From Coffea arabica (lineage: Eukaryota > Streptophyta > Magnoliopsida > Gentianales > Rubiaceae): a DNA stretch of 64,000 nt. The stretch covers positions 7,378,001-7,442,000 of the forward strand of contig NC_092329.1 in the NCBI RefSeq assembly GCF_036785885.1, given 5' to 3'. The position numbers and the translations under genes were made by a program. The notes beneath the pieces were generated by a model. The model was given only the letters and a program-made list of their open reading frames with translations. It was not told the origin of the DNA and did not search any database. The first letter of the stretch is position 1, and each line of letters begins with the position of its first letter. Shown here one piece after another: positions 26,736-54,483 of this stretch.

Positions 26736-26829
26736 TTCTTCTTCAGGTTCTCTCATTACTTGCTTATTACAGCAATTTTATATCCATTTCATTGTTTTGA
26801 ATCCTCCTCAAAATTTCAAACTTTAAAGA

Positions 26830-28649
26830 ATGGATTCCATTTCTTTGTTAGAGAAGAAGCCTCATGCGGTCTGCATCCCATTCCCTGCTCAAGGTCACAT
26901 AAACCCCATGCTTAAACTTGCCAAGCTTCTTCACCACAAAGGTTTTCATATCACCTTTGTTAACAGCGAATTCAACCACAAACGCTTGCTAAAATCTAGA
27001 GGTCCTGATTCCCTCAATGGTTTACCTGATTTCCAATTCGAAACCATTCCTGATGGGCTTCCTCCTTCTGATGTGGATGCCACCCAAGATATTGCTTCCC
27101 TTTGTGAGTCCACCGATAAGCATGGCTTAGGTCCATTTAGAGAACTTCTTGCCAGACTCGATGATACCTCTTCCTCCAACGTACCTCCTGTTTCTTGCAT
27201 AATTTCGGATGCAGCTATGAGCTTCACACTTGCAGCTGCTGAAGAGCTAGGCATTCCCGAAATTTATCTTTGGACCGCCAGTGCATGTTCCTACTTGGCA
27301 ATCTTCCACTTTTCACAACTTATTGACAAGGGTATCACGCCACTCAAAGGTAATGATAAATCCAAAATTCAAGTTCAAAATGTTTCACACTCTTCCGTTG
27401 TTTTTTTCTTTTTTCATGTATATTTTGGGAACTTTCCTTAATTCAAATTTTTACCGCTTTCTAAAGTGTGTTTGACTCTTTTAGTGCCTGAGGCGGATGC
27501 AGAACTTCTTGATTTTATATCATTTACTTTCACATCCTAAGAAGAGTGTATTGTGTATATAGAATTTTTAATAGTTTCAAGAGAAGGATAAAATTCTTTT
27601 TCTTTTTCTTTTTTCAACTTCTGCAATTTTGATGAAACTAAATCACTATGTTACCTTTTGCAGATGCTAGTTACTTGACAAATGGGTATCTTGATACAGT
27701 TCTTGAATGGATCATTCCCGGAATGGAAGGCATTCGTTTGAGAGATCTTCCAAGTTTCCTAAGAACCACAAATCCAGATGACTTTATTCTAAAATTCATC
27801 CTACAAATAACTGAGAGTGCTCAAAGGGCTTCCGCTATTATTTTAAATACTTTTGAAGAACTGGACCATGATGTAATAAGTTCCCTTCCAGCTTACCTTC
27901 CCCCAATCTATCCCATTGGGCCACTACATGTCCTCGAGAATCAGGTTGATGATAAGAGTCTAGAGGTGCTGGGATCAAATCTTTGGAAGGAAGAACCAGA
28001 ATGTCTTGAATGGCTTGATTCAAAAGAACCAAACTCCGTGGTTTATGTGAACTTTGGAAGCATTACTGTAATGACACCTGAGCAACTAGTTGAATTTGCA
28101 TGGGGACTCGCTAACAGCAAACAAACTTTTTTATGGATCATAAGGCCTGATCTGGTCAAGGGCGATCTAGCTATTCTTCCTGACGAATTTGTGGAAGAAA
28201 CCAAACATAGAGGCTTGTTTGCAAGTTGGTGCAATCAAGGGACAGTTCTTAGCCACTCGTCTGTGGGAGGATTCTTAACTCATAGTGGATGGAATTCCAC
28301 AATTGAAAGTATGAGCAGTGGGGTGCCTATGATATGTTGGCCATTTTTCGCTTATCAACAAACCAATTGCTGGATTTGCTGCACCAAGTGGGGCATTGGA
28401 ATGGAGATAGACAACAATGTTAAGAGGGATGAAGTTGAAAGTCTTGTTATAGAGTTAATGTCTGGAAAGAAAGGTAAGGAGATGAAGAAAAAAGTCATGG
28501 AGTGGAAAAAATTGGCAGAAGATGCTGCTTCTTGTTCTAGTGGTTCTTCTTCCGTGAATTTTGAGAATTTGATCAGTCAACTGCAACAATCCAAGACATT
28601 AGACACGTTGGAGTCCAACCACGATAAGGTTAATAATTGGCCTCATTAA
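26830..28649 (+). CDS. UGT85A-type UDP-glucosyltransferase, block B, with an altered donor-site residue
   Basis: Two exons, 26830-27349 and 27664-28649, encode 501 residues around a 314-bp phase-1 intron. I count about 20 amino-acid differences from the block A protein. The catalytic pair is kept: His23 in PAQGHINPM and Asp127 in SCIISDA. The PSPG box runs from WCNQGTVL to FFAYQQ. Its penultimate position, normally Asp or Glu, is Tyr here (codon TAT at 28353-28355), where the block A gene has GAT. In the family the Asp/Glu-Gln pair at PSPG positions 43-44 contacts the sugar hydroxyls, so donor binding may be impaired or changed. The frame is otherwise fully open and the promoter matches its paralogue. 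Acceptor and activity are unknown. Confidence 0.93.
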
Positions 28650-29558: not shown

Positions 29559-30905
29559 TCCTTTATATATATAAGAAGCACTTGGCGCTTCTACTGTTGC
29601 TGGGATTTCGAGTGCATCTCCCTGCTTTAGGATGTTGTACATTGCTTCAGGATGTTGTACGTCGGACTGCGCTTTCTGGTGCTTGTGCTTTGTGCATGCG
29701 TTGGTTTGTGCTTCTGCTTTGTGGTGGAGCCCACTTCAACGTTCCACTGCAACATTCGGCCTCTCATTGTATATGCGTTGGAGATGGGTTGACCTGTGCT
29801 TCTCTTCAAATTAAAATGATAATGGATGTTCCAGATTATTTGTTCAATTAAAAATTATTAATTTTCAATTAAAATTCCTAAAAACAAAATTAAAATTAAA
29901 CTTTGGAAAAAATTAAAAATAAACTTCAACTAAATTATTGAAACATGAGGAATTATGGTAATTGATTTAGAAATATTAAAATTGAGAATTAAACTCCAAT
30001 TGTAAATTAAAAGATGGAGAATTAAACTCCAATTAAATGATAATGGATGTTTGCAAATTATTCAATTAAAAAATATTAATTTTTTTAAAGAATTAAACTG
30101 TATTTATACTTTGCAATGAAAATTAAAAATAAACTTTTGGCAAAAACTAAAAATATATTTCAACTAAATTATATATAAAGGATAATATATAAGTAATGAT
30201 ATTTTGAGATAGGTTTTTGTGATGAAGATAAAGATCACATAGATTTACTGTTGAAATTTGGCCAACAAGTTAAATCATCTAGCTGGAAAGTTAAATCAGT
30301 TGTCTTCCACTACCTTTGGATTTTTACTCTTTTGGCCATTTAGATGCTTATTTTCTGCTTTGCTATGCTCCCAATTTTGCCTATTTTTGTCATTTTGACT
30401 TCCTTTGTCTCGGTTTTCCATATTTCTTCTTTACTGATGGACCTACAATACACAGCTAGAAGAGATACGTGGAAATATTTTGGTATACATCCACAGAACC
30501 AGTTTACATGCAAGTTTCACTGCATTTCACTGCTTCCTTGACATCAGGTACTCTTTTATCCTCAGCCAAATTTACTTCAGATCAGCTGTTCATTTGTTTC
30601 ATAGTGGTATGTATTTGTTTCATCTGAATGTTTGGTCAGGTTTTTGAGCTATATCTTTCATAAAGTCTCTCAAATCAGCAGTTATTTTCTGTCTTCATGG
30701 AGGTATTGTACTGTTTGTGCTTGGTTTAACTGCTTTCTACTTATGTATTCACTGCCTTCCTGTTTTTACGTACATAGTTTGTTCCTTACGCATCAATATA
30801 TATAGCTGTGTACATGCATATTTACACACAATATATATCTGTCTATACGGCTAGATTTTTCTTCCTGTGTCTTTGTTTCGTGCTTGGTTTCTCTGTATAA
30901 GAAAC
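29559..30905 (+). other. 5' noncoding region of the Helitron
   Basis: It begins TCCTTTATATATATAAGAAG. The part from 29850 to 30200 is a very AT-rich stretch with repeated AATTAAAC and ATTAAAAAT blocks. No gene is seen. The promoter of the RepHel gene must lie here, but no site can be singled out. Confidence 0.5.
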
Positions 30906-33900
30906 ATGAGCTGCTCTAAGCTGTCCGTAAGGGATGATCGTGATAAACTTCGTGAGAAAAAGGATAATCGAAATCGTAAAAAAAGGGAAAAATTTGCTGC
31001 TCTTTCGGCTGAAGCAAAAGAAGCTTGTCGAAAAAAGAATAGAGAGGCCTATCATAGAAAAAAATTCGAAAAAATGCTTTGCAAGTCCTTGCCACAACAA
31101 TTTCAACAGGCTCGCAAATCACCAACTTCTGCATCCGTTATGCATACCTTTGCTGCTGAACAATGTTCTCATGGTACATGCTAATATCAACACTCTTATT
31201 ATATTTTTATCATTTGTATGTTCACCATTCAGTATTTCCCTTACGTGCTTCATGTTTGTCTTTGAATGATAAAGGTAGTAGAGTAACTAGTTCTCAAACT
31301 CTGAAAGACATAGACAATGTTGATCGAATTATTGATTGTAATCAAGGTTAGCCACACTATTTATTCTTCTCTAAGTAATATATTTAGCTATACTCAGCTG
31401 ACATTTTTTCTGAATCATTATTAGCTGCTTCCCCCAATCAGTTGTCATCCTCTGAATTTACAAGACACTGCAGAGGTACTATTTAATAGGTCCTTTAATA
31501 GGTCCTTTATTTAAGAGGTACAATTTACACTTTTTATCCTTTATTATGCTGATAATTGATTTTAATAGGTCCTGCAAAACCTGGTATTCGAACTTCTCAG
31601 TCTGCAAACAATAATGCTAAACTATCTTATACTGAGTCAAGTAAAAAGTTAAAAGAACAGATTTCTTCATTCTCAAGTTATGAGAAAGGTAGATTACATA
31701 ATTCATTTCCAATGTATTGTTTACAGTCAGATTATAAGCATTATTGTATTTATGCAATGATCTACTTTCAATTTTTAAACGCAGGATCTGCATCTAACTC
31801 TGAGACAAAGCATACGTGTGTAACTTCGACACAGAGTGCAGGTCATTTAGTCTTCAAAATGCATTGTGATTGCCATTCCTTATATATAACCATCAACATT
31901 ATCATTAGCACTCATATTAATTAGCTTCTTTCTTATCAGATAAATCATTCATATGTATGAACTGCTACAAATTCTTGACAGAAATTGCTGAAGAGGCTTC
32001 AGGTCATAATTCTTCTTGCAACTTTTTTAAAAAAGTTCTGATATCATTATTTATAAGAATTTGATCCACTTTATCTTTAATAGATTTGTCAACCATGCTT
32101 CCAACATACCAAGTGTACCAGCTTCCCCACAGTGGCTCTGCTAGAACAAGGACAAGTAGAGGTTACTACCTTCAATCTGACCAATCATTACTAGCACGCA
32201 TCCAGAAATTATGCTGATTCTACCTATGATGGTCATACAGGCTTTAATACCTCATCCAAACACATTAAAGTCTTTAATTCCTTCTGCTATGGATCAAAAT
32301 ATTTCAGTTCAATGATGCAAATGATGTTCATGATTATTACTCACATATATTCAATGCTATTACATACATTGAATATCAGCATATCTGACTCATTGACAAA
32401 TTATCCAAATACCTTCATCATGTTTCCACCGGCATGTACATACAGGTTTTTATGTGTGATTCTGATTATATATAATTGAACTATTCAGCCACAAGACAAT
32501 CATCAGTGAAACAAAAGAAAGCCGTCAGTAACAGAAAGGAAAAAAAAAGAGGTATAGATTACAAACCATTACTTGTTGCTTTTCCACATACTTATTTTCA
32601 CTTTCAGTATTTAGTTTGACTCAAGTAATTGGTAATTTTACAGCTAATCAAGTTGTCGATGGAGTTTATGCACTGCAGTTTATTAATGACAAGGCAGATA
32701 GATTACCTAGCAAACCTGATTGTCAATTCTGTGGAGCAAAAAGGATGCACTCTGAGACACCTAATTTCTGTTGTTCTGACGGACAAGTAGTTCTACATGA
32801 AAATAACCTTCCAGACATTCTTATAGAATTATTTACTGGTCACTCTGATGAAGCTTTATCCTTTCGTACGTATGTCAGAACATATAACAATATGTTTGCT
32901 TTCACTTCCTTTGGTGTACACTATGATAAATCGCTTTGCAGGAGAACAAATGGTATATATACATTCAAAGTTCAGGGACAGACCTATCACTTCATCAAAG
33001 ACCTTATTCCGCATGGAGGATCTGGACTATATCTGCAGCTGTATTTTCATGATACAGACCATGAGCTCCAAAATAGAATGGCAGTTTCTGAAAGATTAAC
33101 AGAAACTATAGTACTGAGGATCATGGAACTGATGAAATCTAATCCATACGCATGCTTTCTGCGAAGCCTCAGAAATGTTCCAAATTTAGATTCATATCAG
33201 ATAGTGCTGAAATCACATTCAGAAAATGATCAACGAGTATTCAACCATCCAACAGCCTCTCAAGTTGCAGCTCTTTGGACAGAAGCCCAAAATTCAGAAT
33301 CAGGTTATGCAGACACATCCAAATTTATACAAAAGAAGGAAGGGATCACCTGGTGCAATATTATTATGGCTGTTACGATCCTCTGCAGTATCCACTATTA
33401 TTTGCACTTGGTGAAACAGGCTGGCATCCTGGCATCAGAAGAGTGACCACAGAGAATCCAAAAAAGAGAAAAAGATGTATTCAGAAAACCAGAACTACTG
33501 CTGTTCTAACCAACTACAAATCTGCTGAAGAAATGATATCTGCTGAACAAGAAGGTAGTTCCAACCTCCAATGACTCATACATTAGTCATATGCAAATGA
33601 CTTATATATTACTTATATACATTAGTTATCCATTACTTATACAATTAAACATGTGCACTGATTTATATGCAGAATATACTACTTTTATTGATTATATGGA
33701 GAACACAGATCACTTATATTTTGTCAATGTATTCAGCTTCATCCAATTGAATCAATAACTTGTAGCTTATGTATGTAATTTTCAGCTTGCAATGATCCTG
33801 AAAACAACAGTGAATCTGTGTCAATGCGAGAATATTATGCTTATAAATTGCAGATGAGAGACAAATATTGTCCAAATATACTCAACACTGGAAGATTACT

Positions 33901-34465
33901 TCAGCAGTATGTTGTTGATATGTACATAAAAATCGAAAGCCAGAGACTAGATTACTATAAGAATAAACAAGAATTTATAAGAAGAGAGGAACTACAAGGC
34001 GTTATGGATAGCGTCATAGCAGGTCAATGCCAAGGTTCAAAGGTAGGCCAGCGAGTGGTGCTTCCAGTTTCATTTATAGGAGGCCCGCGTGACATGAAAA
34101 GGAGATATGTTGATGCTATGGCTTTGGTACAGAAATTTGGTAAACCAGATTTATTCATTACGACCACTTGCAATCCTTCATGGCCAGAAATAAAGGATCA
34201 TATGCTCGGAACAGATGAAGGACACAACAGACCAGATTTACTCACTCGAGTGTTTCATGCAAAGCTTGATATGTTGAAGCAAGAATTATTCAAAAAAGAG
34301 ATATTTGGATCTGTTGCTGCTTACACCTATGTCATTGAATTCCAGAAGCGCGGTCTTCTTCATGCTCATTTCCTCATAATCTTGAAGCCATGTTCAAAGC
34401 TTTACTCTACAGATTCTTATGATCAAATCGTTAGTGCAGAGATTCCAGATGAGAGCAAAAATTAA
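30906..34465 (+). pseudogene. Helitron RepHel: N-terminal exons and first part of the Rep domain
   Basis: The first exon (ATG at 30906) encodes a basic region with KKREKFAALSAEAKEACRKK. Small exon-like pieces follow between 31270 and 32160. The Helitron-like N-terminal domain runs from about 32613: CQFCGAKRMHSETPNFCC, then FTSFGVHYDKSL. Near 33300-33312 the frame must shift to reach RHIQIYTKEGRDH and CYDPLQYPLLFALGE, a lesion. An intron at 33555-33785 joins in phase. The next exon holds the Rep motifs: DLFITTTCNPSWPEI (motif 1) and FQKRGLLHAHFLII, with the HxH (HUH-type) metal site. A TAA at 34463-34465 then interrupts a frame that continues into the helicase half. The intact protein would nick DNA and drive rolling-circle transposition. 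Confidence 0.8.
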
Positions 34466-34477
34466 CATCTTTTCAAC

Positions 34478-37144
34478 ATGGTTCGTAGACATATGATTCA
34501 TGGTCCTTGTGGCAAAAAAAATCCAAACAATGTCTGTATGCAAGGACAACGTCAGAAAAAATGTAGAAACAATTATCCAAAGCCATTTTCTGAAAAAACA
34601 TTTCATGGGGATAATGCATACCCCACTTACCAAAGAAGCAACAATGGATACAAGATGATGGTTCGTGGACATGAAGTGGATAACAGATGGGTTGTTCCAT
34701 ACAACCCTTACCTTCTTGCAAAATTCAACTGCCATATAAATGTTGAAATCTGCTCTACAGTGAAAGCAGTGAAGTACATATATAAGTATATCTACAAAGG
34801 TCATGACAAGATCCATTTTCGAGTGAATTCAGACAGCTCTAATGACTCAAATTCTGATGCTAATTTATCTACAGTTGATGAAATAAAAAACTACCAGTCA
34901 GCTAGGTGGGTATGTGCAGTCGAAGGTATATGGAGGATATACAGATTCTTGCTATCTGAAATGCATCCTTCTATTATTCACCTACAACTTCACCTAGAAA
35001 ATTGTCAGCCATTGAACTTCAGAGGAGATCAAGACTTACGCGATGTAGTAAGAAACAGATTTGCTAAGAGAACTATGTTAACAGAATTCTTTTACATGAA
35101 TTCTACTGATCCTCTAGCTCAGAACCTCAAATGCACTTATAAAGAGTTCTCTGAACATTTTGTCTGGTATCCAGGAAGGAGAAAATGGGAGCCAAGAAAA
35201 CAAAAAGATTCTATAGGTAGGATAGTGACAGCAAGTCCAATGGAAGGAGAACGATACTTTCTCAGATTACTCCTCACACATGTCAACAGTCCAACTTCAT
35301 TTGATGATTTGAGAACAATAAATGGAGCTTATGTACACACTTTTCGTGAGGCAGCAATCTTGAGAGGTTACTTTGAGTTCGATAAGTCACAAGAACAATG
35401 TCTTGAAGAAACAAGTTTGTATCACATGCCATATAGTTTGAGAAGATTATTTGCGACTTTTCTCGTTCATTTTCCTCCTTCAAATCCAAGATATCTTTGG
35501 GAGCAATTTGAGCAGCCATTATCTGAAGATATGAGCAACATTCCAGAAATATCAGTTGATCAGATTCGTTTGCAGGTACTATGTCAAATAAATGAGTTTC
35601 TCCAATCAATGGGAAAAGACATTAATCAATACGCTTTAGTTTCAAATACCCTGTATTTTGATGCCTTGAACAAAAACACCCGTGATACAATAGCTGAAAC
35701 AAGAATCTCTGTACCAGAGCATGATCTATTAGCAATTAAACAACTAAATGCTGATCAGAAAAAAGCTTTTGACATTATTATGAATGCAGTTTTTGTTCAC
35801 AAGAAAGGGATCTTCTTCATTGATGGACCAGGTGGAACAGGAAAAACATTCCTCTATCGAGCACTACTAGCAGAAACCAGATCAAAAGGATACATAGCTC
35901 TTGCTACAGCATCCTGTGGAGTTGTGGCTTCCATTTTACCAGGTGGAAGAACAGCTCACTCAAGATTCAAGATACCAATTGCTGGAACACCAGATAAGCA
36001 ATGCAGAGTTAGTAAACAAAGCTCATTAGCAAAACTCCTTCAATCTGCAATTCTTATAATCTGGGATGAAGCTCCAATGGCGCATAAGGGCTCAATTGAA
36101 AGTGTTGACAAACTTCTAAGAGATATAATGGACTCAAACGATTTGTTTGGATCAAAGGTCATTGTTCTTGGAGGCGATTTCCGTCAAGTCTTGCCAGTGG
36201 TAACAAAGGGATCAAAATCTGAATTTATTGATGCAAGCATAGTCAATTCGTACATATGGCCACAGCTACGTAGATTACATCTGACTGAAAACATGAGAGT
36301 AAGACATGATCCAGAGTTTACTCAATATCTACTTCGCATTGGAAATGGAATGGAGCCAGTTATCTTCAAGAATTCTATCCAGATACCTCCATCAATGCTG
36401 ATAAGATATACAAATGAGGAACAATCACTGACTGCACTCATCAGGACAGTATTTCCAGATTTGAAAGCATTTTCTGACCAAAATCTCTCTGCAGTTAATC
36501 GTGCTATACTGACAACAAAAAATGACTTTGTTGATCAAATTAATGAGAGACTCATTGTACATTTAGAAGGACAACTCCAAGAATATATCAGTCGAGACAA
36601 GTGTATAGACAGCTCTGACCAGACAATCATGGAGGACTTGCTGAACAGTTTAACTCCAAATGGTTTTCCACCTCATAAGCTACTTCTTAAACCATATTGC
36701 CCTATCATGTTACTCAGAAACATTGATGCTCCTCAGGGATTATGCAACGGCACTAGACTGATATGGAAATCCTTGAGCTCCAATATCATACATGCGGTCA
36801 TAACATGTGGTGAATTTGCTGGAAAAGAGGTCTTCATCCACAGAATATCTTTCAGAGTAGAGAACAGTTCAGACTCACCAGTACCATTTGAACGTATTCA
36901 ATTTCCTATCCGGCCCTGTTTTGCTATGACAATAAACAAAGCTCAGGGACAAACGCTTGATTTTGTTGGCATATATTTGCGTGAACCAGTTTTTTCACAT
37001 GGACAGCTATATGTAGCAATGTCAAGAGCAAAGAACAGTAGTTCTGTGAAAATTCTTATCAAACCATCCATATTTGATGATGAACAAGACTCGATTACTG
37101 AAAATATAGTATATACAGAAGTACTAGATCTAGCTTACCAGTAA
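34478..37144 (+). CDS. Helitron RepHel: Rep tyrosine motif and PIF1-like helicase (888-residue open frame)
   Basis: This frame is in phase with the preceding Rep exon, separated only by the TAA at 34463. It starts MVRRHMIHGPCG, the usual Helitron block after the HUH motif. Near residue 100 it carries the tyrosine motif KYIYKYIYKGHDK, the likely nicking tyrosines. The PIF1/RecD-like SF1 helicase follows: Walker A GPGGTGKT (about 35826-35849), TAHSRFKIPI, Walker B IIWDEAPMAHKG, GGDFRQVLPVV, and C-terminal RPCFAMTINKAQGQT with LYVAMSRAKN. This is the best-preserved part of the Helitron. Because the nicking site and helicase are separated from the HUH domain by a stop codon, the transposase is probably not functional. 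Gene predictors would likely name this an ATP-dependent DNA helicase PIF1-like gene. Confidence 0.88.
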   Translation: MVRRHMIHGPCGKKNPNNVCMQGQRQKKCRNNYPKPFSEKTFHGDNAYPTYQRSNNGYKMMVRGHEVDNRWVVPYNPYLLAKFNCHINVEICSTVKAVKYIYKYIYKGHDKIHFRVNSDSSNDSNSDANLSTVDEIKNYQSARWVCAVEGIWRIYRFLLSEMHPSIIHLQLHLENCQPLNFRGDQDLRDVVRNRFAKRTMLTEFFYMNSTDPLAQNLKCTYKEFSEHFVWYPGRRKWEPRKQKDSIGRIVTASPMEGERYFLRLLLTHVNSPTSFDDLRTINGAYVHTFREAAILRGYFEFDKSQEQCLEETSLYHMPYSLRRLFATFLVHFPPSNPRYLWEQFEQPLSEDMSNIPEISVDQIRLQVLCQINEFLQSMGKDINQYALVSNTLYFDALNKNTRDTIAETRISVPEHDLLAIKQLNADQKKAFDIIMNAVFVHKKGIFFIDGPGGTGKTFLYRALLAETRSKGYIALATASCGVVASILPGGRTAHSRFKIPIAGTPDKQCRVSKQSSLAKLLQSAILIIWDEAPMAHKGSIESVDKLLRDIMDSNDLFGSKVIVLGGDFRQVLPVVTKGSKSEFIDASIVNSYIWPQLRRLHLTENMRVRHDPEFTQYLLRIGNGMEPVIFKNSIQIPPSMLIRYTNEEQSLTALIRTVFPDLKAFSDQNLSAVNRAILTTKNDFVDQINERLIVHLEGQLQEYISRDKCIDSSDQTIMEDLLNSLTPNGFPPHKLLLKPYCPIMLLRNIDAPQGLCNGTRLIWKSLSSNIIHAVITCGEFAGKEVFIHRISFRVENSSDSPVPFERIQFPIRPCFAMTINKAQGQTLDFVGIYLREPVFSHGQLYVAMSRAKNSSSVKILIKPSIFDDEQDSITENIVYTEVLDLAYQ

Positions 37145-37221
37145 TTGCTCTAAGCATGTTCATACGAGTTATTTATCCATGTCTATAATCATATACCTCT
37201 TATAGTCTTCATTCTGTACTC

Positions 37222-39495
37222 ATGTATTCTTATTACAAGTCACAGCAAGAAAGAAACATCATTCCATTCAGTGAGATAATCCCTGGACTACAAAACTGGA
37301 CAGCTCTGGTTCAGGTTCTGGACAAGCAAAAGGCATTACTTTCAAAAGCCGGCAACCGATATCAGAAGCTGATATTAATTGATTAGCATGTAATCGAAAT
37401 TCTGAACTCCACTCTATATACTTTATTACTCAACCTTTATATTCAGATCAACGCAACTATATTTGTTACCAGGGTACAACAGTTGAAGCAATGATTTATA
37501 AATCAGACATCTACTTCTTCAAAAACCATTTCCAACTCTACAAACGATACATTCTCTGCAATGCTAAAGTTGAGTACACACCATCAGAATATCGCAGTCA
37601 TCCAAATCAGTGTACATGGTACATAGATAATTCTACTGTTGTTCAAGCAATAGATGAAGTCCAGCCACCTGAGATTCCAGCTGTCTTCAGATTCTCGCCC
37701 TTTACAAAATTCCACCAGCACATAGATGATAATACAGATATAGGTAAGTCACAAAACCATGTCCTCAACTGCTAATATGCGTAGTCTTCATAACAGTTAT
37801 AACTAAGCACATTCCAAAATCAGATGTCTTAGGCATTGTCGCTGAAGTTCATCCTCGAATACAGAGAGCTACTACTGCTACCAGGGAAGTAGTGATTATA
37901 GACAAAAGATATGTAAAACCATCCATTTATTCTATACCAACTCTATACCATCACAAATTGATCAAAATATCCTTTTCTAACAAATTGTCACTTATCAATA
38001 AAACACAATGCAGCATGATGCCAGTGATTCTGACTCTGTGGGGTGAGCATGAAACAGATGAAGGCCAAACGATTGCAAATATCATTGACACAATGCCGCT
38101 CATTGTTGCACTTCGAATTAAAGTATCATCATATCACAGTGAGTGCATAACAAATTTCTGATGCTCCGCATGTTTAGTGACTTAGTATGTATTCATAATA
38201 CTATGTACCTTACAACACATAATTATTGCAGCACTGAATCTCTCAACAAAATTTGGATCAAGCATTCTGGTTAATCCTCCGATACAACAAACTGCTGATC
38301 TCAAACACTGGTACTACTTCTTCTCATAAGTAATCATTTGAAAATATTTTCTATCAAATATATTCTAAACGTTACAAATGAAACTTTTATCTTGACTCAC
38401 AAGGGCTACTGAGACACAAGCAGAAATCAAGAAACTGATGGCAGAAAAAGCATACCACAACCGAGCTAAGCTTCTGCCACAACCAAGAGATGATGAGCTC
38501 ACAACTATTCAAGATTTCCTTGCGTTTCCTACGGTAAATTGTACCCCTCATGCTTTATCACCAAAAACATTTGAAAGATACACTTTGTTTTTTTTGCCAG
38601 CTTCATCACTTGATTCCCTACTCTTGACCTCTTGTACCAATAACTCATCCAATAACTCTTATTTTCATCCCTTTTTACTTCAGGATTTTTCATTTTCTTC
38701 TTAAACATGTTAAATATTCACATCTACATCTCAATTTCCTTATCAATGTAAGCTGAACAATAGTGACTTTAATACAGAAAAAAGCCTACTGGTTGCGTGG
38801 TACTCCAAGGTTACTAGACAAGAGCCAACGATTATGGTATAATGCTTGTCCACAATGCCACAAATCATTCAGAGGAAAGCCAGCGTGGAAAATTGTTTGC
38901 ACTTCATGCAACAAACAAGTAAATATTACTGCAAGATGCCGATTAACTGTAGAACTTGCTGATTATTCTGGAGTTTTGACGCTTGATCTTTATGACAACG
39001 ATGCTCTTCAGTTACTACCTTTCACCTTATTGGAGATGCAAGACTTAGAAAACAAGGTAACAAATCGGATTTTTATATGCATTCAGAATACTATGAGTAA
39101 AAACTAAGTGTACCATATCTGATCAAAATCTGTTTATATTACTTTCACAGCATGAACTGAACTATGAAGCCATTGAAGAGGCCATTAACAGCACTGTGAT
39201 AACATGCTTTGTGAAGAAAATGATAAACACCCATGCATCCACCAGTACTGAGAAATACTCAGCCATTATCCTGCACAAAACATCCATGGCAGAGATTCTA
39301 TCACAAGTTTCTTCCACCATTGCTTGGTCAGAGTCAAGTACAGAAGCTGCAATCACCACTCCACAGACCAATGAAACTCCACTCGCTACTGCTCCAAAAG
39401 ACACAAATGTGCACAGCAGTTTGCTATCAACTCTGAAAATCACAGAGAGCCCAACTAAAAAGCAACGTACCAAAGAATCTGAAAAGGAAGAATGA
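37222..39495 (+). pseudogene. Helitron-borne RPA70-like single-strand DNA-binding protein
   Basis: Eight exons can be traced with GT-AG joints and consistent phase: 37222-37389, 37473-37743, 37824 to about 37911, about 38014-38138, 38232-38310, 38404-38533, 38778-39056 and 39151-39495. The product has OB-fold segments like replication protein A large subunit (NWTALVQVLDKQK, DIYFFKNHFQLYKRYIL, DVLGIVAEVHP, PVILTLWGEHE). A four-cysteine zinc ribbon (CPQCHKS and CTSCNK) and a Ser/Thr-rich tail ending KKQRTKESEKEE follow. Plant Helitrons often carry such a gene next to RepHel. A TAG at 37384-37386 falls inside exon 1, probably replacing a CAG codon, so this copy is likely dead. The exon 3/4 junction is uncertain. 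Confidence 0.75.
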
Positions 39496-40037
39496 AACTG
39501 TCATATAATACTTTTTGTTAGCAAATATTTTTGGACATCTACTAGCATTCCACAACTTTTGATTCTTGAACTTTGGCTCCTCAGCTTTCTACCCCTAAAC
39601 TTTTTGTTGCTGAACCTCTACTACTCTTTATCATTTGTATAGCTACTGAACTTTTGATGCACTTTTGCTTAAAGATAGTTAGCTGAGCTTTGTGGAACTG
39701 AAAACACCCGCTGTATTATGTATACTTATTGTAACTATTTTGCCTCCACTAGCTGTGTTTGAATTTTTTCTATGCTTGCAAATCCATTCCAATTTTACAA
39801 TAGTTTATTCCTTTCACCTTCATTTGAAAAAAAACTAGAGCACAAACTACAATCAAACCGAGTATTAACAAACCATGAAACACAAAAACATTTCCACTAC
39901 CTATGAACTTCATGCAACTAAACTTCCTCAACACAAAATCTAAACAGAAACTTTTACATATAATACAGTACATCACAACTGCAAACAATTCCACGATACA
40001 AATCATACAGATCAATGAAAAGATACATAGCACTGCA
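39496..40037. other. Spacer between the convergent Helitron genes
   Basis: No gene is seen. The RPA-like gene ends at 39495 and the minus-strand small ORF ends at 40038, so this 540-bp stretch should hold both 3' ends. Confidence 0.4.
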
Positions 40038-40412
40038 TTACAAATTTCTTCCACACGCATCAGAAGAGCCACTCATCGCACTTTGAACTGCTTTCCTCTG
40101 TTCTTCAACTTCTACTTCCATACGACGAGCAATGATTTGAAGAAATAGAAGGTGTCCAATATCCCCTAATGCACTTTCCAGCACACGAGCCTTCTCTGGA
40201 TGTCGATAAAAAGATTTGAACAACTCATATATCTCATTCCTAAGTAAAATATTATTTGCTAAAAGCCGATCTGCACCACTTAAGATCCCATTATCTCCAC
40301 TATGTCCTGCCAAGTTTCCCAACACACCACTTATTGATACTCGATTGAGCATAACTTCAATATCTGGATGCAAATCACGTAACACTGCAATACGATTATG
40401 AGTATAATCCAT
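40038..40412 (-). CDS. Unknown Helitron-borne small protein, member 1 (124 residues)
   Basis: I do not recognise this protein. The chosen start is the ATG at 40412, giving MDYTHNRIAVLRDLHPDIEV; a TTG two codons upstream is not used. It has no signal peptide, membrane segment or zinc motif. The middle and end look helical and charged: LLRNEIYELFKSFYRH, then ARVLESALGDIGHLL, then IIARRMEVEVEEQR. The same pattern recurs in the protein at 41576-41947 (LLKNEICNLFKEFYRH, ASVLEAAF, LIASRMRLEVLEER). Both genes lie on the strand opposite RepHel, in the Helitron 3' half. Two related open frames are better evidence of real coding than either alone. Function unknown. Confidence 0.6.
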   Translation of the reverse strand: MDYTHNRIAVLRDLHPDIEVMLNRVSISGVLGNLAGHSGDNGILSGADRLLANNILLRNEIYELFKSFYRHPEKARVLESALGDIGHLLFLQIIARRMEVEVEEQRKAVQSAMSGSSDACGRNL

Positions 40413-41575
40413 CTTCAAGTCACAAAGAAGTACAAAAAAATCACTAATAAAGTATACAAAAACCTATAACAATACAGCAACTAAATAACCAAATCACAAA
40501 ACTAACGCATTTATACACATCAACTACATCACAGAGCAAAAAGAAACAAATACAAAAAACAGAATGACACTATACACATGTGAACTAAACAACACTGACA
40601 AAAAGATATGTGCCACACAAAAAACTACTGTATTCACATGAATTCTTTTACTCTGTCTCCAAACCAAAACAAAAAGAATCAGTGGTCAAAAACAGATGTC
40701 AACCTGTCCAACATCAATTTCCCTGATCATATTCTTTCTCCATCTATAATCAAACATACCACTCTGTTTAGTCTATCAACATTTACCCGAAATATCCTAC
40801 AACTATTCATTGTTGATTCATTTAAAAATCTGATACATCGCACCAAACAATTAAAAATATCAAATAAATCTTCTTCATTTTATTATCCATTCAATCAACT
40901 TTTAAATTTTTAAACACCTCCATATATTTTATCTATCATTCATTAAACATTCGACTCTTGTCAAAAACTGCAGATTCAATTCGTATTCTGTTTCAAATTT
41001 CCTACAAATTTTCATTGAACAATAATTCACTCTACGCTGGTTCCAAATCTCATACATGCGATGGAACATATGAACATATCGCAGAAATATCCTTCATTTT
41101 ATTATGGATTTAATCTACATATTTTATTCATGTTAATTGTATAAGTTATTATATAAGTTAATCTACATACATGATAATAGACCTAATCTACATATTTTAT
41201 TCATGTTCATTAGCTCTGATACACCTAATAAAATTCTTTTAATTCATGTTAAAATTCCAAACAACTTCCCAAAAACTGCAGGCTACATTCGCATGAGTTA
41301 TGAGCAATCTAAAACCAACACATTGCAAATCTTAAATTTCCTCACAAAATTTCACTACATGCTATTGTACCACACTTCTACAAATAAAAACTTCAGTACT
41401 TCATAAAATACATACATATACATATGATGCTACTTTATGTAGCAAATAGAAGATCATGATATTCTCCAAAAACTCACAAACACTTCTTACTAGCTAAACA
41501 CCATACGCTAAAAACCATACGTCAAAAACCAACAATACACAAACCAAGAAACACATCTTCGCAAAGCCAAAACCT
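40413..41575. other. Spacer between the two small minus-strand Helitron genes
   Basis: AT-rich, with only short plus-strand ORFs that have low-complexity composition. The upstream promoter of the 40038-40412 gene should lie at its left side, but no motif stands out. Confidence 0.4.
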
Positions 41576-41947
41576 TCAATCAGTTTCGCCACCCAAGTCA
41601 CTAGAAGATGGCGGACTGGGAAAGTAATATCTTTCTTCTAACACCTCCAACCTCATTCTACTAGCAATCAATCCCAAGATCGGATAGCCCCTTCCGACCC
41701 TAAACGCAGCCTCTAGAACCGACGCCCAATCATCATGCCTATAAAATTCCTTGAACAAATTACATATCTCATTTTTCAGCAAAACATTTGCCACATGTGC
41801 TCGTGCAACAGGTTCAGCTGGACGATTCCGACACCCATTTCCCAAAGGATAAGCTGCTCCACGAACAACAGCCAGTTGATTCACCTCTTCATCCACCTCT
41901 GGATAATACAATTGAGCAGTCGGAAATCTCCCACTTCCACCCGCCAT
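41576..41947 (-). CDS. Unknown Helitron-borne small protein, member 2 (123 residues)
   Basis: I do not recognise this protein. The start is the ATG at 41947 (MAGGSGRFPTAQLYYPEVDE). Residues about 55-105 align with the protein at 40038-40412 over the pattern LL-(K/R)-NEI-x-x-LFK-x-FYRH, then VLE-A, then I-A-(S/R)-RM-x-x-EV-x-E-(E/Q)-R. The tail is Ser/Pro-rich (FPSPPSSSDLGGETD). The N-terminal half has no shared motif I can name. The region is more GC-rich than its flanks, which supports coding. It sits about 340 bp from the left end of the nested CACTA element. The host gene or Helitron family it comes from is unknown to me. Confidence 0.6.
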   Translation of the reverse strand: MAGGSGRFPTAQLYYPEVDEEVNQLAVVRGAAYPLGNGCRNRPAEPVARAHVANVLLKNEICNLFKEFYRHDDWASVLEAAFRVGRGYPILGLIASRMRLEVLEERYYFPSPPSSSDLGGETD

Positions 41948-42570
41948 TTGCAAACGTTAACTATCTACAGACAAATACTAAACGTACACTTCTTACCAGT
42001 ATCCCAGCTTCAAATATATAACCAAGAAACACCACTAGACACACGTGAATTTTCAGAACTGCCTACCGTCCTTCCACACAAGAAATTACACGTCTCATAC
42101 TACCTACACATGCAAACAAATATCTACCATGCACACGTCAATACAGCATAGATTCTGCTAACTTCATAACAGTAATATGCAGTAATATATATAAAAAATA
42201 TATATATAATATACATGTATATAACAGTAATATACACTGAAAAACGTATATATATATATAATATACATGTATATAACAGTAATACACTACAAGAAAACGG
42301 GCTTTTTGCAATGCTTTTGCTGTGGCACAAGGAGAAAGTGCGGTAAATAAGCAGCAAATTTCAATTTGTGCTGCAAATTTCACAACGGTTCCTAATTTTT
42401 ACATAAAAATGACATAGTTTTAATAAAACCCATAAAAGAAAAGAAAAGAAAATAAAGCCCAAAAAAAGGGGGAACAAACGATCCTTTCTAAAGATAACTA
42501 AACACCTAAATAGCTAAATACCCAAAAATCTGATCCTTTCCAAAGTCTGAAAGCAAACAACCTAATTCCA

Positions 42571-42592
42571 CCTCTCTCTCTCTCTCTCTCTC
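42571..42592. repeat. (CT)n microsatellite
   Basis: Eleven tandem CT units in the 5' noncoding part of the CACTA element. The stretch 42599-44263 around it has no credible gene; the ORF at 43192-43560 lacks any domain. Confidence 0.8.
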
Positions 42593-44263
42593 TTCCATCT
42601 CTCAATTCCCTTTGATTTCTAATGATGCAGTAGAAATACCTTCGGTTCCTAATTCCTGGTTAATTAATTTTTGTGTTTGTTTCTTAGTTTTATATCTGCA
42701 GTAGAAATATCAAACCAAATTTTCTTTCAATTTTAGGTCATTTTTCGAAAGGTGAATAAATTGGATATCCTCGGTTGGATTTGGTTCTCTATCGATAAAC
42801 CAATTGTAGCTTTGAGACAACTCAATCAACAATTTGGAAACATTGCAGCTTTCTAGTTTCTTGAATGGTGGGCTTGGTTGTCAAGAAGGCAGAATCAGTT
42901 GGGGGGGCAGTACGTGGCGTTCTGCTCAGATTAATACGCCCCGTGATTCCCGAAAACTAGGTAACCTTGTATTTTTACTTCTAATTGATTTCTGTTATCG
43001 TTGAAGTTCTGAGCATTTTTGTTTTGTGTTGGCTATTTTAGTTTCTAACAAAAGTGATTGACGTATGCTTATTTTAATCTGTCAAAGCCAGTCCTTTTTT
43101 CTTTTATCTCTTTTACTCTCATATTACTACTGCCCAATTCACATGATTTTCCTAAGGGAAATTAGTCTGCTCAGTATTTAATACATCTGCCATGATTATT
43201 TGTGTCGAGTGTTTGAAATTTGGCACTGGTCTTTGTTTTTACTTGCTCATAAGTAATAGTCACAGGATTGATCAGAACCAAACTTATTTTAGGAATTTAT
43301 GTAGGATTAAATGCAAGTCTGTTTTTTCCAGGCTCACGATAACTCAACGAAGTTTTACTGAAGGCTACTATTCATTCTCACCGAAGCTTTTGTTTATTAG
43401 CAATACACATGGCTTTCAATATTCTGTGCTTACTCTTACCATTGCTGATAGTGTGCCAAGACCTTTTACCTCATGGAAAATGAGCTGTATTTGCTACACT
43501 GGATCGGGCTTATGGTGTCTTTTTATTTCAATTATTTCACGAATCGCTTTTTCAAGTTGATTTCTCTTCTTTTTCTATTTCTATATATTTTAAGGGCACA
43601 GTAAGAGGAATTTAGTGATTAGTAATGGTCAACTTGAGTTATTTATGCTTTTTATTGGGTTAAGATGGAGAACGACTATATGATTTTTAAATGTGGATTT
43701 TAATGGATTTTTTCAATTATTTGAGACTTAATGTGATTTAAGGTGGAATTCTAGAGTTTTAGTTTGAAAATTTGGACTTCTGTGTAAATTGTTATGTTGT
43801 CATGCATTTGTTACTTCTCCTTTTTTTGGCCACTTTTATCCGGATTATGTCTTTTTCAATACAGTAGACAAGTTCTTGTACATAGTTGAACAGCAATCTA
43901 ACTATCTGAATTGCCCATAACCATCATTTTTATCTGCCTAGCAATTGTAGCTTGCTAGCAATTAAATGTTCTACCAAGTTGCAATTAGGAATTTGTAAGA
44001 CAATCTAGCTCCCCTGATTTATCTATGTTTCTTTTTCTTGCAAACAAAACACTGGTTTGCATATTGACATAAATTCACCACATTCTTTTGGCATTGAGAA
44101 GTTGGGTTAACTGTTAACATCGCATTCCACTATGAGCATAGCAAACTGGGATGCACATGCTGCACTTTATTTTTTATTTTTTTTGCATGTTAATAAATTT
44201 GCTATTTTTCAATTCTGTTTATAAGGTCTCTTTTCTTGCCTTCTCAATCTTGTTTCTTGTAGA

Positions 44264-45271
44264 ATGGATGATAGGTCTTGGATCTTTATTGAAGACCGAG
44301 TCAATAATCCATACTTTGAAAAGTGTCTGAGTGACTTCCTTAAATTTGCCTACAAAAAGAAGGAGGTTGGGAGTAGAATATATTGCCCATGTAGGCGATG
44401 TAAAAACTCAGAATGAAGAAAGGAAGAAACTGTGCATGCACATGTAACAATGAAGGGCTTTTTGACCACTTATACAAATTGGATTTATCATGGTGAAGAT
44501 CCATGGGACTTCAATCAAGAAAATATGAACAATGGAGTTATACCCTGGATGTAAAAATTTTACTCTTCTATCATTTGTCATCAAGTTGTTGCATGTCAAG
44601 TCTCTTTGTCGATGGAGCAACAACTCAATGACAATATTACTGGAGCTTCTCAAGGAAGTTTTTCCTGAGAATGAATTATTTCCAAGCTCTTATCGTGATG
44701 CTTGGAAGATTGTTAAAGACTTGGGTCTTAGCTACCATAAAATTCATGCATGCCCCAATGATTGCTTGATTTATTGGAAGGAGACAGAACATGAAACCTT
44801 TTGCAGAAAGTGTGGAACTCCTAGGTATAAGCAAATTGTAAAACAATCCGATGAATCAAGTGAACAAGCTAACAAAGTTCCAGCAAAGCTTGTTCGCTAT
44901 TTTCCTTTGAAACCACGTCTCCAAAGGCTGTTCATGTCATCAAAGACTGCTTCATTAATGAGATGGCATGAAGAGGAGCGCATCAAGGATGGAAAATTGA
45001 GGCATCCGGCAGACTCTTTAGCTTGGAAACATTTTAATGACCGGCACCCAAGCTTTGCTAGTGATCCTCGCAATGTTCGTGTTGGACTTGCAGCGGATGG
45101 ATTTAACCCATTCAAAGCAATGAACAATAAATACAGCACCTGGCCAGTGATTTTAGTGCCATATAATTTACCCTCATGGATGTGCATGAAGCAAACATCA
45201 TTTATGTTGTGTTTGCTAATTGATGGGCCTAAAGCTCCAGGTAATGATATTCACATATATCTTCAACCATG
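44264..45271 (+). pseudogene. CACTA transposase (TNPD-like), truncated
   Basis: The ATG at 44264 opens MDDRSWIFIEDRVNNPYFEK and a CPCRRCKN zinc-type motif, the transposase-associated domain. A TGA at 44414-44416 interrupts; the frame then continues in phase as RKEETVHAHVTMKGFLTTYT. After a deletion and frame change the main block starts at about 44532 with ELYPGCKNFT, WSNNSMTILLELLKEVFPEN, KIHACPNDCLIYW, and later RVGLAADGFNPF and STWPVILVPYNLPSWMCMKQ. It ends in a stop after GNDIHIYLQP, where family members continue into the rest of the catalytic region. The product cannot be an active transposase. Confidence 0.85.
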
Positions 45272-45298
45272 ACAAAATCATTTATGTTGTGTTTCCTA

Positions 45299-46762
45299 TT
45301 AGCACACTGTCCTGCAAGAGTTGAGGAGGATCAATGGCCTATTTTGGTTGATTATTGGAGCTCAGAAGATGTCAAGGCATGTATTTATTGTCACATCTCT
45401 TTTGCTTTTGAATTAAATTCTAGTGCTATTATGATTTTAATGTGTTGTTAACTACCTTTTTCTATTTTGTACATAATTAGAAGCAAAGCAAGATTAATAG
45501 CAAGAATTGAAAAAAACAAAAGATGCCACATCGAACAGGGCGAAAAGATCATGTGAACCTCAGGGAAGAGGTATATTAAATTCTAATGCTTATGTTTCTA
45601 GCAATTTTTTCTGGAAAATAGTCTTATTTAGAAATATTAACACTTTAGTATGTAACTTGAATATGTGGCAGCTTCGGATTAAAACTGGAAAAGAGCCTTC
45701 GAAACTAGACGTTTTTATTCATTCAAGACAAGGAAAACAAATGGATGAGTTGACTTCACAAACAATTGTAAGAATAGCTTTTAGTCACTTTTTATTGGTT
45801 TTACTTCATAAATAATTCTTTCTTCTGTCTGTTTTTCAATTTAGGCAACTATGAATGAGGAAATACAAAAACTGCCAGAGACATCCAGGGATGATAATTT
45901 TGTGAAAGATATACTCTATGAAAATATCCTTGGACCTGAAAAACCAGGTCGTCTTCGAACTTATGGGGTAGGTGCGACTCCAAAAGACGTGTATAGGATG
46001 TCAGATAACATGAATGCTGGACAAAAGAAAGCATTTGAGGATGCAGTGAATGATAAAGTGGAAATCATACGTGGTGAACTACGAGAAGAAATGAATTCGA
46101 AATTGGTAGATTTTAAGGAGGAGTTGATTGCTCAATTTGAAGCAAGAATGGTTTGGGATAACTATTTGGTTAAATATTATAGTTTTTCTAATTTTTTTAT
46201 TGCTTTAGTTACTATTGATCTTTGTTCTTCCAGAGGGCATCCACATGTGACTTGGCATCACTCCAAAGAAGAGAAATGAATGCAGCAAAACAATCTCAAA
46301 TTTCGGACTCATTAGAGGTTGTATATTAATTCATACAATTCGATTTTGTGTTCAAACTCTCTGAAATATCAGTAGCTATGGCCTGATTTTCTTTTCTTCA
46401 CACTTTGTTGATAATGTAGCAGGTTGGTGATAGAATGAACAGGGAAGTTGGAACAAATGATGCTGAAATGTACAAGGAAGTTGGAACAAATGATGCTGAA
46501 ATAAACAAGTGTGAAATGAATAAAAAAGTTTCTTCAATTGCTGATATTCTTGAGGTATAGTATGCGTACTTTGAGTTGGTCCTTCTATAGAAGACCAATT
46601 TTGCTGAGTTCCTTGTTGATATTGAATTGTGCATGACTTCCTTGTTGATGATTATTTGTGCATGAGCTCCTTGTTGATATTTAATTGACTAGTCTTTTGT
46701 TATACCAGAACCATAATACAAAGAAGAAAAGGAGTAGGACTACTTGCAAACGACTTGCTTGA
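45299..46762 (+). pseudogene. CACTA TNPA-like (Transposase_24, Ptta/En/Spm) gene remnant
   Basis: Exon-like pieces read RVEEDQWPILVDYWSSEDVK. Next comes KQSKINSKN, a stop, KKQKMPHRTGRKDHVNLREE, then KLDVFIHSRQGKQMDE. The best-preserved block is 45846-46150 with NILGPEKPGRLRTYGVGATP and a coiled EEMNSKLVDFKEELIAQFEA. Later pieces end in KRSRTTCKRLA and a stop at 46760-46762. The sequence GAAGTTGGAACAAATGATGC occurs twice in tandem near 46443-46498. This family binds the subterminal repeats of CACTA elements. The in-frame stop makes this copy nonfunctional. Confidence 0.7.
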
Positions 46763-47324
46763 GGTACTGGAAAAGTTTCTGGAAATAACTCTATTCTGTC
46801 AAGTTTTCCATTGAGTATTTGTATGATTGGGAAGACGAGCTATTTTTGTTAAGATTTAGCCAGCTATTTATGGGACATAATGTAGTAGAAGTGGTCTTAA
46901 TTTTCAGTGTCTATGAAAAGGTTGAATTACAAATTCCGTTTCAGTATCTATTGTTATATTAACGTTTTCTTCATGCTTAATGGGCTGGGGTTATATGAGC
47001 AGGGGACTAATAGAATACACTTTGCAGCCCTGGACTTGATGGTACATTGGAAGCACGCGGATTGGGAGATATGAAGATGTTTTTGAGAGATGTATGATGA
47101 AGTGTTGTACTTTTGAAGACAAGCACATTTTGGAATATATGAAACATCTTGTAATTGGAGCGAACAATATTAAATGATAAAGTTTGTAGAATTTGACTAA
47201 AACAATGTATGATACTTTATTCTAGTGTATTGTGGAACTATATTTTGTTATAATATTCAATTTTAGGATATTTGAGCATGATAATTATTGTACCATGAAA
47301 AAATTGATTTCTGGTCTTTATATT

Positions 47325-47570
47325 GGTGACTTTTTTGTGACGCAAGTTTTTGTCGCATGACATTGTGGACATTTTGTAGCGCATTTTTTGTGCCGCAAAT
47401 AGAGTGGTGACACTCAAAATTGGCGTCGCAAAGAGTGATGTAAATGCATGCGACATGTTGAAAAATTGTGTCGTTTTCTTTTGTAATGGCTACTTTTGTG
47501 ACGCAATTTAATTCCGTCGCATTTGTGCCGCAAAAAGGTTTTCGCGGCGGTTTTTGGACTTTTTGCAGCA
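47325..47570. repeat. Subterminal repeat cluster of the CACTA element
   Basis: Short related units such as TGACGCAA, GTCGCA and GCCGCAAA occur repeatedly in both orientations just inside the right end. Plant CACTA elements use such arrays as TNPA binding sites. The matching left end (42298-42365) has only weaker GCAATG/GCACAA units. The few hundred bases before this cluster (46763-47324) hold no gene. Confidence 0.6.
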
Positions 47571-47608
47571 TATTTCTGGCGTCGTGAAAAGTCAGTTTTC
47601 TTGTAGTG

Positions 47609-48120
47609 ATATATACCAACAAACGTACACAATAATTATACATATATACATTTATACATTACAGATATATATAAATATATATAGATATATACTAATTAAT
47701 ATAAATAATAATCATTCATACACAAGTATGGCACATATATACAATCATATATAGATATATATACAAATATATATATAAATATATATACATATAATACTCA
47801 TACGTATCACAATTGTACATATATACAAATATATATATAAATATATATACAAATATATTTCCACCACTTATCCAATATATTTAACTCACAATATACAAAT
47901 GATATTTCCACCGGTTAACCTGAAAAAAAAACTTACGCAACATATTTAACTCACAACAAATAAAAACAAAAATCACATAGATTTTACTCTTGAACTTCCA
48001 CAAAAAAGCTACAAATACTCTATTTAATTAAAATTCTAAAATTATCCATTCAAAGCATTTAACCACACGTGCACAAATTGAAAACCAAATTTTCCCACAT
48101 TTATCACCTACTACCCAGCA
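47609..48120. other. AT-rich 3' part of the Helitron
   Basis: Imperfect TATATA/ATACAAATATA repeats fill 47640-47870. They continue the similar tract left of the CACTA (42181-42284), so the CACTA inserted into one TA-rich tract. No gene is seen. Confidence 0.6.
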
Positions 48121-48149
48121 CCCGCGCGTTGCGCGGGATACCCACCTAG
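48121..48149 (+). other. Helitron 3' terminus: hairpin plus CTAG
   Basis: CCCGCGC, loop GTT, GCGCGGG forms a perfect 7-bp stem (48121-48137). The element ends at CTAG (48146-48149), with host T next. This is the standard Helitron termination signal. Confidence 0.93.
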
Positions 48150-52734: not shown

Positions 52735-52741
52735 TATAAAT
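52735..52741 (+). promoter_or_regulatory. Putative TATA box of the 52821 UGT
   Basis: CCCGCTATAAATTTGG lies about 85 bases before the chosen ATG, a usual spacing in plant genes. Confidence 0.6.
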
Positions 52742-52820
52742 TTGGATAGATAGCCATAGGCTTAAGCATCAAAACTCATTCCAACAACAAAAGAAAGTGA
52801 AGGGGAAAAAAACACAAGCA

Positions 52821-54483
52821 ATGGGTTCCATGTCTCTGCCAGAAAAGCCTCATGCTGTTTGTATTCCATATCCAGCACAGGGTCACATAAACCCTATGCT
52901 GAAACTAGCCAAGCTCCTTCATCATAAAGGGTTTCATATAACCTTTGTTAACACAGAATTCAACCACAAACGTTTGCTCAAGTCTAGAGGTCCTGATGCC
53001 CTCAATGGCTTGCCTGATTTCCAATTTAAAGCCATTCCTGATGGGCTTCCTCCTTCTGATGTTGATGCCACCCAAGACGTTCCCTCCCTTTGTGAATCCA
53101 CCACTACTCATTGCTTAGGTCCATTTAGAGATCTCCTTGCAGAACTTAATGATCCCTCTTCATCACAAGTTCCCCCTGTTTCTTGCATAGTTTCTGATGG
53201 TGTCATGAGCTTTACTCTTGAAGCTGCCGCAGAACTAGGCGTCCCAGAAATATTGTTTTGGACTCCTAGTGCATGTGGATTCCTGGGTTATATGCACTAT
53301 GCTAAGCTCATAGAAAAGGGTCTCACACCACTCAAAGGTACTCTTCAGTCCCAAGAACTTTTTGTAGTATTTCTCTTTTGAGCTCTCGTGAGAGAGACTT
53401 TTTAGCACTAGTTGGACTTCTGAACTTCTGCACTGCGAATAGATATAATATAACCCCCTTGGCAACTAGCTTAATGGCATTTAAGAGAGTAATTCCTGTA
53501 TCTTCTTTTTTATTTTTTAATCGAGTTAAAATTGTAAATCCTTGTTAATTGCAGATGCAAGTTACATGTCAAATGGATACCTTGAGCAAGCTATAGATTG
53601 GATTCCCGCGATGAAAGATATACGTCTGAGAGATCTTCCAAGTTTCTTAAGAACTACAAATCCGGATGACTACATGACAAAGTTCGTATTGCAAGAGACT
53701 GAGAGATCCAAGAAGGCTTTAGCTATTATTTTGAACACATTTGAGGAGCTGGAAGATGATGTTATAAACGCTCTGTCTGCCATCCTTCCTCCCATCTACG
53801 CCATTGGGCCTCTACAGTTTCTCCAGAAAGAGGTGAAAGACGAGAGGTTATCAGTTTTAGGGTCAAATCTTTGGAAAGAAGAGCCCGAGTGCCTAGAATG
53901 GCTTGATTCAAAGGATCCCAATTCTGTTGTCTATGTAAACTTTGGAAGCATCACTGTTATGACTGCTGACCAGCTTGTGGAGTTTGCATGGGGACTTGCA
54001 AACAGTAAACAAACATTTTTGTGGATCATTAGGCCTGATCTTGTCTCTGGCGACTCTGCAATTCTTCCTCCTGAATTTTTGGAGGAAACTAAAGATAGAG
54101 GCCTACTAGCAAGCTGGTGCCCTCAGGAACAAGTTCTTAGCCATCCTGCCATTGGAGGATTCTTAACTCATAGCGGATGGAATTCAACTCTCGAGAGCAT
54201 CTGTAGTGGGGTGCCCATGATTTGTTGGCCGTTTTTCGCCGAACAACAGACCAATTGCTGGTTCTGCTGCACTAAATGGGGCAATGGATTGGAGATAGAC
54301 AATAATGTTAAGAGGGAAGAGGTTGAGAGCCTAGTGACTGAGTTGATGGTTAGAGAAAAGGGAAAGGACATGAAGAAAAAAGCCTTGGAGTGGAAGAACA
54401 AGGCTGAAGAAGCAGCTAAAAGTTCGGGTGGCTCTTCTTACTCCAATTTGGAGAAGGTGGTCCAGGTGCTTCTCTCCAAGTAA
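52821..54483 (+). CDS. UGT85A-type UDP-glucosyltransferase, right-hand copy (7-deoxyloganetin glucosyltransferase-like)
   Basis: Two exons, 52821-53337 and 53555-54483, encode 481 residues with a 217-bp phase-1 GT-AG intron. I chose ATG 52821 ([10 protein letters not shown]), which fits the paralogues and the TATA at 52735; an upstream GTG is not a plausible start. All hallmarks are standard: His22 in PAQGHINPM, Asp126 in SCIVSDG, and the PSPG box from WCPQEQVL to FFAEQQ with HSGWNS and the terminal Glu-Gln pair. The length is typical, and there is no C-terminal extension like that of the block A and B genes. This copy has the most canonical donor site in the window, so it is the best candidate for an active iridoid-type glucosyltransferase. 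The acceptor remains an inference. Confidence 0.95.

Follow-up and report, generated by a model that had tools for sequence, protein, structure and literature searches.

Two small genes on the minus strand of a plant Helitron, gene 1 (40038..40412, 124 aa) and gene 2 (41576..41947, 123 aa), are almost certainly genuine accessory genes of the transposon and form an anciently duplicated pair from an unrecognised family of small proteins. The evidence directly establishes where they lie and how they are oriented, that they are inherited together with RepHel and occur in many separate insertions, and that both are under purifying selection.

The gene pair and its carrier Helitron

The window, i.e., the whole 64-kb stretch of DNA that was analyzed, contains a Helitron at 29559..48149 on the plus strand (18,591 bases, or 13,267 without a nested CACTA element), which begins with TC at 29559 after a host A and ends with CTAG at 48146-48149 before a host T. 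Its 3′ end (48121..48149, plus strand) carries a 7-bp GC hairpin (CCCGCGC/GCGCGGG; fold z = -4.05) just internal to the CTAG, and a scan of the 64-kb window recovered just one such hairpin-plus-CTAG end. The empty site is AAATA/TATAT, with insertion between A and T and without target duplication. The RepHel gene (32532..37144, plus strand) is broken; its open frames contained matches to PF14214 (Helitron_like_N, E = 3.4e-57) in 33779-34462 and to PF05970 (PIF1 helicase, E = 4e-69) and PF21530 in 34466-37141, separated by an in-frame stop at 34463-34465 that leaves two abutting open frames. An apparent frame change lies between 33230 and 33446, and the open frame is 892 aa in the window versus 1,121 aa in the two closest copies. 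The RPA-like gene (37260..39492, plus strand, exon limits approximate) consists of several exons, with PF08646 in 38757-39107; the exon piece starting near 37260 has a stop after its 41st codon, at a place that is open in 18 of the 20 other copies, while L015 and L018 stop earlier so that the place is unread there. By its domains, termini, and dispersed copies with unrelated flanks (described below), the window element is a canonical plant Helitron.

Gene 1 and gene 2 are both intact and follow RepHel and RPA inside the Helitron, on the opposite strand; each was recognised by its open frame, homology to the other gene, genome copies, and selection. The coordinates and lengths of the two minus-strand ORFs in the original prediction were confirmed, as was their placement opposite to RepHel and RPA in a Helitron, given that PF14214, PF05970, PF21530, and PF08646 all matched on the plus strand and the Helitron termini were located. 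The proposed kinship of the two ORFs through a spaced common pattern also held up: the same blocks were seen, and the proteins were 33% identical over 110 residues (BLASTP, E = 8e-16 in a single comparison). Identity by codon position was 44/57/37% over 114 codons and 55/71/42% in a 55-codon core, which appears as in diverged coding sequence, and dN/dS between the two genes was near saturation (dS 2.2). The spacer between them (40413..41575) contains diverged direct repeats, e.g., 40826-40899 and 41045-41118 (73%). An ATG-to-stop ORF of at least 123 aa appeared on the minus strand in 1 of 1,000 dinucleotide shuffles of the 2,784-base region. The original prediction had further pointed out that both frames are open despite the RepHel and RPA lesions; the lesions are real and the ORFs intact, but as evidence from a single copy this counts for little: with three lesions over ∼6 kb of coding sequence (an estimate), well under one would be expected in 0.74 kb.

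Several other features of the region were noted. A CACTA-type element is nested at 42285-47608, between gene 2 and the Helitron 3′ end, with matching 13-base inverted termini (CACTACAAGAAAA), a 3-bp ATA target duplication, and a PF02992 (Transposase_21) piece at 44529-45272. GC skew on the plus strand ranged from -0.33 to -0.54 (C over G) at 39493-42284 and 47609-48149, alike in genes and spacers, and was opposite in sign (+0.11) in the nested CACTA element. Glycosyltransferase-like genes flank the Helitron on both sides (4259-5943, 10827-12644, 26827-28649, and 52740-54483); the piece at 27642-28646 matched PF00201 (UDPGT), and the other cluster genes were similar by eye. Near each of its ends, the window element carries the motif CACATAGATTT, which turned up in L009 but in none of L012, L016, L018, and L023 (these loci are short of the 5′ end). 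A sigma-70 promoter scan of the region did no better than shuffles, is meaningless for plant DNA, and was discarded.

Copies elsewhere in the genome and selection

The search for copies covered the genome of the window itself, 131 contigs totalling 1.2 Gb, where gene 1 had 107 matches at E ≤ 0.001 and gene 2 had 105; the two lists overlap because each gene also picks up the other. Stretches of 10 kb were fetched around the gene 1 matches ranked 2 to 21, i.e., 20 of the 107. All 20 loci contained RepHel, gene 1, and gene 2, with both small genes opposite to RepHel, and all 20 contained RPA exons, with RepHel fragmented or interrupted by stops in several. Gene 1 had an uninterrupted ATG-to-stop frame in 17 of the 20 (broken in L019, L025, and L028), and gene 2 was open at 123 aa in 16 (broken in L015, L017, and L025, with an altered end in L028). 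The 3′ hairpin and CTAG followed beyond gene 2 in 16 loci, or 15 by a stricter scan. When the 3′ flanks of 17 copies, including the window, were compared with low-complexity sequence masked (three flanks being <110 bases), only L012 and L013 shared flanking DNA, so the gene pair moves as part of the element. Outside the genes, strong conservation within the last 260 bases of the 3′ part examined was limited to about the last 40 bases. Tandem arrays lie between gene 2 and the 3′ end in L009, L014, L015, and L017, and their differing periods (e.g., 24, 124, 155, and 10 bases), called without a shuffle control, reflect fast turnover of the noncoding 3′ part.

Both genes are under purifying selection while the spacer decays, and the proof of this comes from the other copies rather than from the open frames of the window copy. 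A comparison of dN/dS between Helitron copies, as the original prediction had suggested, was made by maximum likelihood under a GY codon model with 13 distinct copies per gene (L028 excluded) and gave omega values of 0.235 for gene 1 and 0.156 for gene 2, with lnL gains of 37.3 and 44.6, respectively, over the best omega = 1 fit across five kappa values; the best kappa for gene 2 was at the edge of the five-value grid. Among pairs with dS >0.15, NG86 omega ranged from 0.18 to 0.35 across 11 gene 1 pairs, from 0.06 to 0.24 across 10 gene 2 pairs, and from 0.13 to 0.15 across 6 pairs of the RepHel C-part; in distant pairs, the two-gene module is thus about as constrained as RepHel. Close pairs were uninformative or near neutral: window/L009 gave 0.16 for gene 1, 0.06 for gene 2, and 0.31 for RepHel; L018/L023 gave 0.47 for gene 1 and 0.28 for gene 2; and window/L010 gave 1.40 for gene 1, 0.89 for gene 2, and 0.71 for RepHel, values that fit relaxed constraint after insertion and lend no support to selection. 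In seven distant pairs, the spacer was 65-80% identical with 170-428 gap columns, whereas the genes were 84.5-91.1% identical with zero gap columns; in the close pair window/L009, the spacer and both genes were alike (97.7-98.4%). Distances of gene 1, gene 2, and RepHel correlated at 0.988-0.993 over 66 non-independent pairs of 12 copies.

Distribution over RepHel lineages and breadth of the family

The two-gene module is a marker of one RepHel clade rather than a universal feature. Scoring of the RepHel C-part covered the best 51 of 1,709 candidate places, with gene 1 as the query for nearby family members. Among these best 51, all 26 RepHel copies of at least 73% identity had a family member 2.1-4.4 kb beyond, on the opposite strand; 23 had both genes, and the other three, a subclade of 76-77% identity, had gene 1 alone. 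In L029, a member of this subclade, gene 1 lies at 597-938 and a CTAG at 1770, ∼0.8 kb after gene 1, and a search for gene 2 before the 3′ end found none. The RepHel C-part frames were full-length and open in the three listed copies of the subclade, so gene 2 is not indispensable; the L029 subclade is a natural gene 2 loss and suggests that gene 1 can suffice there. Of the RepHel copies of at most 69% identity among the best 51, 24 of 25 lacked a family match within 15 kb and one had a match at 9.2 kb; inspection by eye of the gene 2 and third-type match lists yielded no extra member within 15 kb of these 25, one of which (C9:1684623) had family members ∼21 kb away. Fifty-seven of the 107 gene 1 matches were unassigned to any of the best 51 of the 1,709 RepHel places.

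Shorter stretches fetched around 15 further matches yielded diverged gene 1 and gene 2 types. Additionally, a third and distant type of paralogue with the core LKNEILNLFGTFYSTPAWTPTLEAAL was observed on the strand opposite to a gene 2-type gene (L037:2209-2592, L038:979-1362, L040:97-503, L041:52-435, L042:2677-3001, and L043:2581-2997); it had 20 genome matches, several with stops. An RPA exon also present in L037 shares 54% identity with its window counterpart, so the third-type group is probably Helitron-linked too; RepHel was not found in 5.5 kb beside another member of the third group, L044. In an alignment of 19 members (A3), N59, E60, F65, Y69, and A95 (gene 1 numbering) were invariant, and 18 of the 19 had a pI <6.5, i.e., were mildly acidic. 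In the family tree, which had a midpoint root only, support was 0.97 for the gene 1 members, 1.00 for the third-type members, and 0.87 for the split of gene 2 types from the rest, with one deep node at 0.41. No clearly single-copy host gene was found among the fetched members, L034 and L035 being ambiguous: in L034 (226-2395), a gene 2-type ORF lies ∼1.4 kb from a Hydrolase_4 (PF12146) ORF, the two loci are 97.6% alike over 3.67 kb, and no Helitron parts were found in these 4-kb stretches, which would be either a capture carried by a mobile copy or a duplication of host DNA.

The family went unrecognised in database searches, as in the original prediction. Neither gene matched a Pfam family at E 10 or an NCBIfam family, and none of the 19 members matched Pfam at E 1; an APG6-like identity was rejected, as PF04111 was matched by neither gene 1 nor gene 2 at E 10 nor by the 19 members at E 1. 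The only PHROGs row for either gene, at E 0.25, belonged to gene 1. No usable match came from the PDB sequence search: gene 1 returned nothing, the rows for gene 2 had E ∼1, and those for the 19-member profile had E ≥ 1.8. Viral and genome contigs held no relative of the small genes, as expected for plant sequence, plasmids held none of gene 1 (the only one searched there), and RepHel had no match among viral contigs. An AlphaFold2 model from two sequences was of low confidence (mean pLDDT 57, pTM 0.39; 74, 72, 60, 70, and 75 for the ten-residue blocks from 61 to 110), with predicted helices at 4-14, 16-34, 46-69, 72-84, and 89-117, which suggests an all-alpha protein; Foldseek of this poor model against the PDB returned 24 rows at E 10 and none at ≤0.001. 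An OB fold is a feature of the RPA32 and RPA14 subunits; for comparison, the low-confidence model is all-helical, and gene 1 and gene 2 have no Pfam match.

Proposed role, alternatives, and known systems

We propose that both proteins fold as mildly acidic helical bundles, the core of which would be formed by LL-(K/R)-N-E-I-x-x-L-F ... F-Y-R ... V-L-E ... I-A-x-R-M. The proteins would most likely be protein-protein adaptors, either homodimers or heterodimers of the pair, and would act in trans to assist or regulate the machinery of RepHel and RPA. They would be neither enzymes nor classical basic DNA-binding proteins, since a mildly acidic character and the absence of any recognised enzyme domain argue against both catalysis and DNA binding of the classical kind. 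This adaptor mechanism is put forward tentatively, at somewhat less than an even chance; as a joint working explanation, accessory genes acting through such adaptors seem probable to us. Opinion is evenly balanced on the broader proposal that the family, undescribed in the literature searched, comprises two to three ancient paralogues and is a selected part of a plant Helitron lineage, that the RepHel and RPA set is incomplete, and that these genes would control silencing or rolling-circle assembly.

The main rival mechanism, rather unlikely in our estimation, is that the proteins are anti-silencing factors that, by analogy with VANC of VANDAL, would bind the fast-diverging 3′ noncoding repeats, or recruit a partner to them, and remove silent chromatin marks. 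Tandem or diverged repeats with periods varying by copy do occur in the 3′ noncoding part of most copies examined (called without a shuffle control), and the target regions of VANC consist of tandem repeats that diverge rapidly (PMC10398659); however, the proteins are small, mildly acidic, and unlike a classical DNA-binding protein, and no common binding motif was found, the candidate CACATAGATTT being absent from four of the five other copies looked at.

Two further readings deny the genes a function in the element. According to one, raised in the original prediction, they are captured host exons, two neighboring host genes carried as functionless passengers. Helitrons often capture gene fragments (PMC3288121), an undescribed host source is conceivable, the searches having covered described families and structures, and the gene 2-type ORFs of L034 and L035 lie close to the Hydrolase_4 ORF in stretches without Helitron parts. 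Nevertheless, the family extends across the whole RepHel clade, its gene distances track those of RepHel, omega is well below 1 for both genes, the ORFs are without introns, and no member has a Pfam match; the functionless version is refuted by the likelihood omegas, the gap-free genes beside a decayed spacer, and the RepHel-tracking distances. With no match to a described family and inheritance with the element over the clade, capture is very improbable. The other reading, chance open frames in an AT-rich region bearing repeats, could draw on the diverged direct repeats that surround both ORFs, and is practically excluded: frames of the required length are as rare in shuffled sequence as given above, and the omegas and the contrast in gap columns between genes and spacer have already refuted it. 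The alternative offered in the original prediction, a diverged accessory pair of a Helitron lineage, is borne out by the same place and orientation in all 20 loci, purifying selection, and RepHel-tracking distances; homologues in other Helitron copies were found, and no described family was matched in searches of Pfam, NCBIfam, PHROGs, and the PDB.

These transposons appear to use more than helicase and single-strand-binding genes. Little is known about the assembly of plant Helitrons, their regulation, and their escape from silencing, and the work consulted centres on RepHel and RPA. A constrained two-gene module is a direct handle that can be deleted, expressed, or pulled down; natural elements without gene 2, or in which no family member was seen, serve as ready comparisons, and the module labels a Helitron lineage. 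It also cautions against dismissing small reverse-oriented Helitron ORFs as captured debris.

The Helitron literature searched, which covered few subscription journals, yielded no description of the gene 1/gene 2 family, and its novelty is provisional, the family being known here from one genome. Plant Helitrons are described as RepHel and RPA plus captured fragments (PMC3288121), and the available text of a paper on an active wheat Helitron family does not mention ORF, accessory, or replication protein A (PMC13286980). The window Helitron shares TC/CTAG ends, a 3′ hairpin, and RepHel followed by RPA on one strand with plant RepHel/RPA Helitrons such as maize ZmhelB and PHRPA-bearing elements; however, it has two extra opposite-strand genes, unmentioned for the latter in the available portions of those papers (PMC3288121; PMC4683698). 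Like VANC of VANDAL, gene 1 and gene 2 belong to a plant DNA transposon, do not encode its transposase, and adjoin fast-diverging noncoding repeats, although VANDAL belongs to another transposon superfamily, the comparison is by description, and anti-silencing here would be an analogy (PMC10398659). In rice Mothra, a reverse-oriented ORF of 96 aa weakly matches the APG6 domain and is assumed by the authors to be a functionless capture; it is likewise a small reverse ORF beside repeat blocks in a plant Helitron, present in the family consensus (PMC4683698), but differs, as far as descriptions allow comparison, by that weak match from the window family, which has no Pfam match. FoHeli3 of Fusarium oxysporum differs in being a fungal Helitron2-like element with a single extra ORF upstream of the transposase gene; compared by description, this ORF resembles the window pair in its opposite orientation, its lack of known domains, and its occurrence only in Helitrons (PMC5148889).
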